This document shows positions 13,252 to 16,554 of a DNA stretch of 33,749 bases, one piece after another (positions within the stretch are counted from its first letter, which is position 1; the number at the start of each line of letters is the position of its first letter). The position numbers and the translations under genes were made by a program. A model generated the notes under the pieces. The model was not told where the DNA came from, searched no databases, and was given only the letters and a program-made list of their open reading frames with translations. The stretch is from Synechococcus sp. CO36386bin_29 (GTDB taxonomy: Bacteria > Cyanobacteriota > Cyanobacteriia > PCC-6307 > Cyanobiaceae): the NCBI GenBank assembly GCA_011523835.1, contig WTFZ01000105.1, positions 1 to 33,749 on the forward strand, read 5' to 3'.

Positions 13252-14491
13252 GCGGCTGGGATTGCTCTGGGGCATCACGGTGTTCGCCGGTGCCGGGGCC
13301 AGGCTGTTGGCAGCTCTGTCCGGGCTTCCAGGCGTCGTTCTGTTGCTCCTCTCTGGTCTGTTGATCGGACGCTCCGGGCTGGGACTTGTCGAGCCGCTGG
13401 ACCTGGGGTTGGGGCTCGAGACCACAGTGGGCCTACTGGTCAGTCTGGTGCTGTTCGACGGCGGTCTGAACCTGCGTCTCCCTGGGGACACAATCAAAGC
13501 GACTGTATTGCGGATTTCTCTGCTTCGCCTGCTGTTGTCGCTCGGCGCGGGGGTGCTGGCTGCGCACTGGTTGGCAGGACTGGGATGGTCGGTGGCTGCC
13601 GTTTACAGCGCCATCGTGTTGGGTACTGGGCCGACCGTGGTCACGCCGATCGTTCAGCAGATCCGTCTGGCATCGCCCTTGGGGGATGTGCTGGAAGCCG
13701 AAGGCCTTGTGTTGGAGCCAGTGGGCGCGGTGCTGGCTCTTCTGCTGCTTGAACTGTCGCTGGGGGATCTCCATGGCTGGCGAGAGCTGGCGATCGGGCT
13801 GATGTCGCGGCTTGGAGGCGGCGTGATGATTGGCTTGGCTGTGGGCTGGTTGCTCTCGGAGGTGCTGCGGCGATTGCCCTCGGAGCATTCCGTCGGGCTG
13901 AGGCTTCAACTCACCCTGGGAGTGCTGTTTTTGATGTTCTCGATTGCGGAATGGCTGCTCCCGGAGTCAGGACTGCCTGCTTCGGTGGCCGCCGGTGTGG
14001 TGGTGGGGCGTCGCCCATCCACCCAGGCAGGTCAGCTGGATGAGTTGATCAGGGAGTTGGCCCGGCTTGCGATCACCATGCTGTTCCCGCTTCTGGCCGC
14101 AGATGTGTCTTGGGCGGAGCTCAGTCCTCTCGGATGGGGTGGGGTGAGTTGTGTGTTGGTGCTGATGCTCGTGGTGCGCCCAGCGGCCGTCAGTGTGGCC
14201 ACCGTGGGTCTTCCTCTTGATTGGCGGCAACGGCTCTTCCTGGGATGGCTCGCGCCACGGGGAATTGTGACCGCGGCTGTGGCTTCGCTGTTTGCTATCA
14301 GGCTTGAGCAAGCCGGGGTGCTTGGAGCAGGACGCCTGCAAGGCCTGGTGTTTCTAACAATTTTGATGACCGTTGGCCTTCAGGGCCTCACAGCCCAGCC
14401 CCTTGCCAAGGTTCTCGGTCTGATCGATCAGACCCCCGAGGCCATCAACGAGGCGCCGTTGCCGACGGAACCGTCAGAGGCAGCGCCTTAA
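13241..14491 (+). CDS. Cation:proton antiporter (CPA/NhaP-like)
   Basis: A 416-residue membrane protein with about 12 helices and the Na+/H+ exchanger fold. The first discontinuous-helix segment reads [18 protein letters not shown], the form found in the GPTV branch of these antiporters, and the next block is [17 protein letters not shown] late conserved block has [19 protein letters not shown]. It probably exchanges Na+ or K+ for H+ for pH and salt balance. There is no TrkA-N regulatory domain. In related proteins I recall Asp-Pro where Glu-Pro stands here (see findings). It overlaps the preceding small gene by 11 bp and the convergent gltX by 18 bp. Confidence 0.88.
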
Positions 14492-15904
14492 GCGGGGGAG
14501 ATCCTGACCAATCTGCGCCAGAAGAGACCAAGTGGTGAGTAGGTCGGGGCCCTGCAATCGACCCAAGAGGGCTGCCCTGAGGCTCTTCATCAAGATCCCT
14601 TTCTTCACACCTGCTGTCTTGGCAGCGCTTTTCAGGATCTCCTGGGCTTGGTCAATGCTCTCGCCAGACCAGGGAGCCTCCTCCAGGGCGTTCAGAAGAG
14701 CCTGCAGACATGGTTTGGCTCCCTCCTGATCAAGCTGTTTGAGGGCATCGTCCTCCAGGCCAGGCTCCATGAAAAACGGTTTGGCCTGATCCACACCATC
14801 GTTCAGCAGGGTCAGCGAGGGTCCGAGCAGCTCCACCAAGGACAGCGTCCAACCGGTGGTGTCGGGGATCGTCCAACCTTGATCGGCCCATAGCGGTGTA
14901 AGGGCGTTCTGAAGTTTCGCTGGCTCCCAACTGTGGAGGACCTGGGCATTCAGCCAGTTCAATTTGTCCCAGTCGAATTTTGCGCCGGCTTTGTTGACGC
15001 GATCGAAATCGAAGACCTTGGCGGCTGCTTCGAGCGTGAAGATCTCGTTCATTCCCTCAGGCACTGACCAACCCAGCAGGGTCATGTAGTTCGCCAGCGC
15101 TTCCGGGGTGTACCCCATCGCTCGAAAATCATTAATGGAGGTGACTCCATCCCGTTTCGACAGCTTGCGACCTTCGGGGTTGAGGATCAGTGGGGCATGG
15201 GCGAATGCCGGAACCGGCAAGGACAACGCTTCATAGAGGAGCAGCTGTTTCGCGGTGTTGGCGATGTGGTCTTCGCCTCGAATTACATGGCTGATGGCCA
15301 TTGCGGCGTCGTCAACCACCACCACGAGGTTGTAGAGCGGATCACCGATTTGATCGGCGGGAGCCCGCCTGGCCACCACCATGTCACCACCGAGGTCCGC
15401 ACCACGCCAAAGCATCGGTCCACGCACGAGGTCGCTCCAGCGAATCTCACGATGCTCATCGATGCGGAAACGGATAACGGCGTCCCGCCCCTCAGCCTGG
15501 TAAGCCGCTTCTTTCTCAGGTGTGAGGTCGCGATGGCGATTGTCGTAACGGGGTGCTTGGTTCGCCGCTTTCTGCTGGGTCCGCATGGAGTCCAGCTCCT
15601 CTTCGCTGGCGTAGCAGCGGTAGGCCAGCCCCTTGTCCAAAAGACTTTGAATCGCACTGCGATGGCGTTCAGTTTGCTCGCTTTGAATCACTGGGTCTCC
15701 GTCCCAGTCAATGCCAAGCCACTGAAGGCCCTCGAGGATGTTCTGGGTGAATTCCGGTTTGGATCGCTCCTTGTCGGTGTCCTCAATACGCAACAGAAAG
15801 GAACCGTCCTGGTTTCGCGCGAACAGCCAGTTGAAAACAGCCGTCCTGGCGGTGCCGATGTGAAGGGTTCCCGTAGGGCTCGGAGCCAGACGAACGCGAA
15901 CCAT
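14474..15904 (-). CDS. gltX: Glutamyl-tRNA synthetase
   Basis: A 476-residue class Ic synthetase that charges tRNA-Glu. In cyanobacteria it is non-discriminating and also makes Glu-tRNA-Gln for GatCAB. Its product is the precursor of all haem and chlorophyll through HemA and HemL, and hemL is in this window. The HIGH motif appears as LHIGTAR (14-20), KMSKS as KLSKR (247-251), and [18 protein letters not shown] is present. The zinc-binding cysteine cluster of the E. coli enzyme is not present. The start ATG 15904 lies just 20 bases from the 3' end of tRNA-Asp. Confidence 0.97.
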
Positions 15905-15924
15905 GCAATGGCTGAATGATGAAA

Positions 15925-15998
15925 CGGGACCGACGGGATTCGAACCCGCAACTTCCGCCGTGACAGGGCGGTGCTCTAACCGGTTGAACTACGGTCCC
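15925..15998 (-). tRNA. trnD: tRNA-Asp (anticodon GTC)
   Basis: The minus strand gives acceptor stem GGGACCG/CGGTCCC, anticodon stem CCGCC/GGCGG with loop CTGTCAC (anticodon GTC), and T-arm GCGGG-TTCGAAT-CCCGT. The discriminator is G, the identity base for Asp. CCA is not encoded. It lies immediately upstream of gltX on the same strand. Confidence 0.96.
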
Positions 15999-16141
15999 AG
16001 ACTGACCTACGGATATCTCAATCCGATCGGTTTGTCTGTGTCGCTTGCGCGACCAAATAAGTATCGACCTAAGCCCTGCCCTCCGTCAATAGTTGAGGTG
16101 GAAACAATTGGATGAGCCCCGGCAGTCATCGCCTACCCAAT

Positions 16142-16168
16142 AAAAAACCCCACCTTCCGGCGGGGTTT
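16142..16168 (-). terminator. Rho-independent terminator of the rplS-trnW-PSHCP unit
   Basis: Read on the minus strand: an AAACCCCGCC arm, loop GGAA, a GGTGGGGTTT arm with one internal mismatch, then a run of T (TTTTTTA). It lies 23 bp after the stop codon of the PSHCP gene and separates that unit from tRNA-Asp. The remaining stretch 15999-16141 shows no gene; it must contain the promoter for trnD-gltX, but I could not pick a convincing one. Confidence 0.88.
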
Positions 16169-16191: not shown

Positions 16192-16380
16192 TCAAGGGCG
16201 GAAACCTGCAGGTTCAATCAAACGAACTTGATTGCCACGGGCCGTGAATTCACGGCCTTGATCGCTTTGAACAACGACACGACCACCAGATTTGACACGA
16301 ATCACACGTGCTCGAACCCAGCCAAGTGCGGCTGATTCGAGCACCTTGACCACATCACCAGGTTGAAGATCCAACTCCAT
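16192..16380 (-). CDS. Prochlorococcus/Synechococcus hyper-conserved protein (PSHCP), Tudor-like, tRNA-binding
   Basis: A 62-residue protein, MELDLQPGDVVKVLESAALG through to IEPAGFRP. I recognise it as PSHCP, reported to be identical in all Prochlorococcus and marine Synechococcus genomes and absent elsewhere. Published work describes a Tudor-like fold over residues 1 to about 54, a disordered tail, and preferential tRNA binding through a basic patch around Lys30; here residue 30 is lysine, next to R23, R25 and R28. Pull-downs linked it to ribosomal protein L2, PsaD and a Ycf48-like protein. The ATG at 16380 gives exactly 62 residues. It lies 36 bp downstream of tRNA-Trp on the same strand and is followed by a terminator. 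Confidence 0.9.
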   Translation of the reverse strand: MELDLQPGDVVKVLESAALGWVRARVIRVKSGGRVVVQSDQGREFTARGNQVRLIEPAGFRP

Positions 16381-16416
16381 GCTCGAAATCAGGAAACTGC
16401 AGTAGGGGCCATCGGA

Positions 16417-16489
16417 CGCGCCGTGGAGGACTCGAACCCCCGACATCAGGTTTTGGAGACCTGCGTTCTACCAACTGAACTAACGGCGC
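16417..16489 (-). tRNA. trnW: tRNA-Trp (anticodon CCA)
   Basis: The minus strand gives acceptor stem GCGCCGT/ACGGCGC, D stem GTTC/GAAC, anticodon stem CAGGT/ACCTG with loop CTCCAAA (anticodon CCA) and T-arm GGGGG-TTCGAGT-CCTCC. The discriminator is G. CCA is not encoded at the 3' end. It lies between rplS and the PSHCP gene, on the same strand as both. Confidence 0.96.
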
Positions 16490-16490
16490 A

Positions 16491-16554
16491 AGGCGATGGA
16501 CCCCTCGGCCATCGCCGAAGCGATGGCATTTGGATTGAACGAGGTCGAAACCTC
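16491..16554 (-). promoter_or_regulatory. Hairpin cluster between rplS and trnW with mutually exclusive stems
   Basis: Read 5'-3' on the minus strand from the rplS stop codon, three stems appear. GAGGT-TTCG-ACCTC (plus 16541-16554) starts inside the stop codon. GCCATCGC-TTCG-GCGATGGC (16508-16527) is an 8 bp stem with a C(UUCG)G tetraloop. The right arm of that stem can instead pair as GGCGATGG (16509-16516) with CCATCGCC (16492-16499), two bases before the 5' end of tRNA-Trp. No T run follows, so this is not an ordinary terminator. It may be an RNA processing site, a 3'-end stabiliser or a partial attenuator; the role is inference. Confidence 0.65.

Follow-up and report, generated by a model that had tools for sequence, protein, structure and literature searches.

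On the minus strand of the window, the whole 33,749-nt stretch of Synechococcus sp. CO36386bin_29 DNA that was analysed, the gene order reads rplS, tRNA-Trp(CCA), 36 nt, PSHCP, terminator, tRNA-Asp and gltX. The group opens with rplS (ribosomal protein L19; 16553–17074, minus strand; Pfam PF01245, 156 bits), placed upstream of tRNA-Trp as the original prediction had it. In the rplS–trnW interval, the rplS 3′ UTR, the minimum free energy (MFE) fold contains a hairpin, GCCATCGC-TTCG-GCGATGGC (16508–16527, minus strand), followed by a leader arm with one bulged U (16494–16505, minus strand). The tRNA-Trp gene (16417–16489, minus strand; Rfam RF00005, 68.9 bits; ARAGORN bounds 16414–16490, minus strand) does not encode its CCA end, and from its discriminator G at 16417 to the PSHCP ATG at 16380 there are the 36 nt claimed earlier. 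This tRNA trailer is also the PSHCP 5′ UTR (16381–16416, minus strand) and harbors a trailer arm at 16404–16414 (minus strand). The PSHCP coding sequence (16192–16380, minus strand, stop codon at 16194–16192) specifies 62 residues of a Tudor-domain protein; a longer open reading frame (ATG 16446, 84 aa) extends back into tRNA-Trp, and such longer variants of the gene are put down to start-codon misannotation in PMC4215834. The predicted terminator of PSHCP's own is found as an intrinsic-terminator-like hairpin at 16140–16168 (minus strand), with stem AAACCCCGCC-GGAA-GGTGGGGTTT and Ts after it (strand folding, z −3.2). Beyond it on the same strand lie tRNA-Asp(GTC) (15924–15999, minus strand; ARAGORN) and the glutamyl-tRNA synthetase gene gltX (14474–15904, minus strand; Pfam, 318 bits), two neighbors that the original prediction did not mention.

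Two further elements of the untranslated regions deserve description. The UUCG-capped hairpin at 16508–16527 (minus strand) is strong, and marine Synechococcus relatives carry, as judged by eye, a hairpin of other sequence in the same place; perhaps it acts as a protector of the rplS mRNA 3′ end. Within the PSHCP 5′ UTR no Shine-Dalgarno sequence was found, and column frequencies reveal a semi-conserved TGCAGTTTC stretch (16402–16382, minus strand) outside high-light Prochlorococcus, replaced by GAGGAG in two loci (L073, L096).

Residues 1–56 of the encoded protein are 100% identical to PDB entry 6nnb_A (E 2.4e-31), entitled ‘Solution structure of the Tudor domain of PSHCP’, and Lys30 is present together with Arg23, Arg25, Arg28 and Arg34, so that the protein, its fold and the basic residues named beforehand are all recovered in the window. 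An AlphaFold model (pLDDT 86) has 6nnb as its top PDB match, followed by SH3-like barrels that include the Tudor domains of PHF20 and TDRD3, and is consistent with the five-stranded SH3-like barrel that characterizes Tudor domains. Exactly the same 62-aa sequence is encoded in 226 of 233 loci. Association with the ribosome is indicated by an L2 pull-down in PMC4215834. At the nucleotide level, synonymous variation is suppressed in codons 2–9 (codons 1–9 occupy 16380–16354, minus strand): in high-GC genomes mean codon heterozygosity is 0.21 there vs 0.46 for codons 10–62, and GC3 is 0.45 vs 0.71, the gltX control for codon variation comprising only 8 sequences. Unusual codons such as CTA/TTA are retained at the PSHCP start in genomes of 60–70% GC.

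PSHCP is restricted to the picocyanobacterial clade. It is present in 363 of 400 Cyanobiaceae genomes and in 247 of the 251 near-complete ones; two near-complete genomes lacking it were checked and gave no trnW match either (a search run without a positive control), so that the absence is probably an assembly gap. A class-wide search of 291 genomes returned nothing better than E > 0.007 outside Cyanobiaceae, and no copy was found in the phages or viral contigs searched. An identical PSHCP locus occurs on a contig titled Bifidobacterium breve (CALPNT020000095.1, locus L107), evidently a mislabelled cyanobacterial contig.

Conservation of gene order, the comparison proposed with the original prediction, was assessed in 233 loci containing trnW and PSHCP, 184 of them distinct and ranging in locus GC from about 33% to 71%. 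The order holds throughout, PSHCP being flanked by rplS–trnW on one side and trnD–gltX on the other: rplS precedes trnW on the same strand in every one of the distinct Cyanobiaceae loci (184/184), and gltX follows in 169/169 loci long enough to contain that position. The gap from discriminator to ATG is exactly 36 nt in 110 of the 184 and between 34 and 39 nt in 175, a spacing maintained across the 33–71% GC range. Both the order rpl19-trnW-PSHCP-trnD-gltX, in all picocyanobacteria examined, and partial co-transcription were already published in PMC4215834, and what is new here is the extension to 184 distinct loci and the outgroup comparison. Several outgroups have rplS-trnW-secE-nusG (L143, L147, L152, L154), which resembles the PSHCP locus in that trnW sits behind rplS and ahead of a protein gene, but differs in lacking PSHCP and a conserved leader:trailer helix. 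In an S. elongatus-type outgroup (L144, L145) the order is rplS-trnW-terminator-trnD, with trnD at 205 nt and PSHCP absent; a distant homologue was sought in the S. elongatus trnW–trnD gap, which holds no open reading frame of at least 40 aa. The ancestral PSHCP site may have looked like this. Since trnW lies behind rplS in the outgroups and the S. elongatus type has trnW–trnD without PSHCP, PSHCP seems to have entered a trnW–trnD gap that existed before it.

The central finding concerns the RNA immediately flanking the tRNA, whose 5′ leader and 3′ trailer pair into a 10–12 bp helix enclosing it. In the MFE fold of the window AGGGGUCCAUCG (16505–16494) pairs with CGAUGGCCCCU (16414–16404). For Synechococcus/Cyanobium-type loci the mean duplex energy is −21.1 kcal/mol for cognate arms, −17.1 for lineage-swapped arms and −10.0 for shuffled leaders, and permutation of cognate against swapped arms gives z −9.2 (0/5000). 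Pairs were counted in fixed register in two ungapped, register-matched subsets (A2, A3), the MAFFT alignment (A1) being left out because the length of the 5′ loop varies by 1 nt between lineages; paired cells make up 93.9% and 96.9%, figures favored by the choice of a bulge-free register, which leaves the permutation test unaffected. The covariation score exceeds 500/500 shuffles and every slide in both alignments, on loci that are phylogenetically non-independent, and RNAalifold predicts the helix unprompted. Turnover of pairs is exemplified by trailer position +8, where 92 paired loci comprise CG 25, UA 20, GC 19, AU 18 and wobble 10. On a tree built from rplS and PSHCP sequence, parsimony counts about 23 switches between pair types at this position. 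Arms complementary to each other on either side of a stable RNA and compensatory changes between them point to selection having kept the leader:trailer pairing, and argue strongly for evolutionary conservation of the helix in Synechococcus/Cyanobium. For low-light Prochlorococcus support is weak, since z is about −2 (68–104 of 5000).

The same permutation test gave no signal on tRNA-Asp of the same loci (z +0.2) or on outgroup trnW (z −0.2). In each of three genomes, where 27–29 tRNAs were surveyed, tRNA-Trp has the strongest leader:trailer duplex. As a separate observation, tRNA-Tyr(GTA) (L260–L349) has a leader GUGUGG complementary to a trailer CCACA in three genomes (G000, G009, G075) and is a possible second stalked tRNA. 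Other identities for the paired element were considered and set aside. A palindrome acting at the DNA level is disfavored by frequent G-U pairs, which indicate that the helix acts as RNA; a known RNA family was sought in Rfam, which matches only the tRNAs; and an attenuator-like alternative in which the upstream hairpin would pair with the leader arm (GCCATCGC / GCGATGGC / CCATCGCC) was dropped because in relatives (e.g., L020) the hairpin varies, by eye, independently of that arm.

What the helix serves is a separate question, and one answer would confine it to tRNA-Trp, whose folding or fast maturation between two mRNAs it might assist, PSHCP being merely the downstream gene. The helix is indeed anchored to the tRNA and not to the ATG, for it still adjoins the tRNA in loci whose trailer has grown to 46–67 nt (L073, L085, L226), and the S. 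elongatus-type outgroup already places trnW next to trnD, separated by a terminator, and has no PSHCP. Against this, outgroup trnW also lies behind rplS yet carries no helix, so that helix and PSHCP turn up in one and the same family, and the 34–39 nt spacing is kept over the full span of GC content. A role limited to the tRNA is thus a credible alternative, though one to be entertained only tentatively.

High-light Prochlorococcus provides a natural contrast, a single clade in which the leader:trailer helix is missing and a promoter-like box takes its place. The box is a TATAAT ahead of tRNA-Trp, in 36 loci beginning exactly 15 nt before it, and judging from this position it would start RNA 2–4 nt before the tRNA. 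Helix and TATAAT are mutually exclusive in 180 of 184 loci, a suggestive pattern that is probably one event in one clade and hence not independent replication. These strains retain an identical PSHCP, and this bears directly on the notion, raised in the original prediction, that the attached tRNA would let PSHCP bind the message encoding it. Such autoregulation, as in ribosomal proteins, would have PSHCP bind its precursor at tRNA-Trp and the stalk, repressing or stabilizing it. PSHCP is reportedly an RNA-binding Tudor protein, going by the title of a 2019 JBC paper, and its fold agrees; moreover, its 5′ UTR bears a folded tRNA and a covarying helix. However, the outer stalk pairs vary freely in sequence, so that recognition would be mainly of shape, and because the high-light strains keep the protein although the helix is absent and a promoter-like box lies at the tRNA, binding through a tRNA loop cannot, on these genomes, be a general mechanism. 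We regard autoregulation as decidedly unlikely. A more elaborate form, in which the stalked pre-tRNA-Trp is the RNA ligand of PSHCP and a tRNA-based autoregulatory leader couples tRNA-Trp maturation, L19 and PSHCP's own synthesis, with high-light Prochlorococcus having lost this leader and using promoters instead, is a long shot.

Conserved pairing between leader and trailer implies that RNA must run from before tRNA-Trp into the PSHCP leader, which agrees with the RT-PCR evidence cited in PMC4215834 for co-transcription of rpl19, trnW, PSHCP and trnD. The suggestion that L19, the tRNA and PSHCP arise from one transcript consequently stands in part: spanning transcripts are detected in the published RT-PCR and RT-Q-PCR, but the full-length rpl19–PSHCP RNA makes up less than 2% of the pool by RT-Q-PCR in the same source. 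According to its Table 1, most PSHCP RNA in MIT9313 and WH8102 includes the 5′ region and excludes the tRNA, this ‘hcp + 5′ region’ class accounting for 74.9% and 81.1%, respectively, vs 9.5% in MED4, where ‘hcp only’ accounts for 42.8%; the first two strains are of the helix type and MED4 of the TATAAT type as assigned here from their relatives. From the RT-Q-PCR, performed with a ladder of forward primers, its authors favor a promoter inside tRNA-Trp. PSHCP would then be transcribed alone, from a promoter about 37 nt into the tRNA or just ahead of the ATG, and adjacency would matter only as promoter housing. The MED4 ‘hcp only’ fraction fits a promoter of PSHCP's own, yet the tRNA body is near-identical across strains whose ‘hcp + 5′ region’ fractions differ as widely as 75–81% and 9.5%, which speaks mildly against an internal promoter, and RT-Q-PCR cannot separate a start site from a processed end. 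Since the conserved helix in addition requires RNA spanning the whole tRNA, we judge independent transcription of PSHCP to be rather unlikely.

The explanation we find reasonably probable is that in most Cyanobiaceae rplS, trnW and PSHCP share a precursor on which the helix forms a processing stalk, and that the PSHCP mRNA begins near the 3′ boundary of the tRNA. The three genes would be transcribed at least partly as a single precursor, in which the end of the rplS 3′ UTR pairs with the PSHCP 5′ UTR and the resulting helix adjoins the acceptor stem, with a small internal loop separating the two. A nuclease step, putatively by RNase III on the stalk and/or by RNase P and RNase Z at the two ends of the tRNA, would excise the tRNA and so yield the 3′ end of the rplS mRNA and the 5′ end of the PSHCP mRNA, with the stalk setting the rate or position of cutting. 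Gene order, spacing, helix and compensatory evolution are observed in the loci themselves; the identity of the cutting enzyme and control by the stalk over the rate or position of cleavage are inferred. A search of four family genomes recovered an RNase III gene in three, the window's own, incomplete genome returning none, and one cyanobacterial RNase III is reported to have a role in tRNA and rRNA maturation (PMC10989914). RNase P is expected to act more slowly on tRNA ends that are extended or paired (PMC10731613).

An mRNA start near the tRNA 3′ boundary fits the ‘hcp + 5′ region’ class of PMC4215834, dominant in MIT9313 and WH8102 and scarce in MED4, although this is a reinterpretation, and a tRNA-internal promoter predicts an identical pattern. 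Several points weigh against a processing stalk. The helix has 10–12 bp, whereas pre-16S rRNA of E. coli requires >17 bp; the full rplS–PSHCP RNA is rare, and the authors who measured it prefer the internal promoter; and the helix is missing in high-light and weak in low-light Prochlorococcus.

Few proteins of the ocean's most abundant phototrophs are as conserved as PSHCP, and a conserved stalk connecting the PSHCP message with a tRNA and L19 would give a concrete account of where that message begins, as well as an alternative reading of the published transcript data. The new element is the conserved stem by which the PSHCP message, at its start, is linked to the tail of the rplS message before it, a stem for which no earlier report was found in Rfam, in the available passages of PMC4215834 or in a partial literature search. 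The published PSHCP locus agrees with the present one in its identical protein, gene order and partial co-transcription and differs in that those passages describe no leader:trailer helix. Closer in architecture are the leader-trailer helices of bacterial pre-16S and pre-23S rRNA (PMC10250234), in which complementary flanks likewise clasp a stable RNA within a polycistronic transcript and show covariation. These measure 25–40 bp vs the 10–12 bp of the tRNA-Trp stalk, which, unlike them, clasps a single tRNA between two mRNAs and for which cleavage by RNase III is putative. Pre-tRNAs with a paired leader or extended acceptor stem (PMC10731613) resemble the stalk in having paired bases close to the cleavage site, which are predicted to make RNase P slower, and in retaining U(−1)/G(+1), but they are described as inhibitory structures, whereas the tRNA-Trp stalk is conserved by compensatory changes across a family. 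To the rRNA leader-trailer helix the stalk thereby adds what would be a short, tRNA-sized version.
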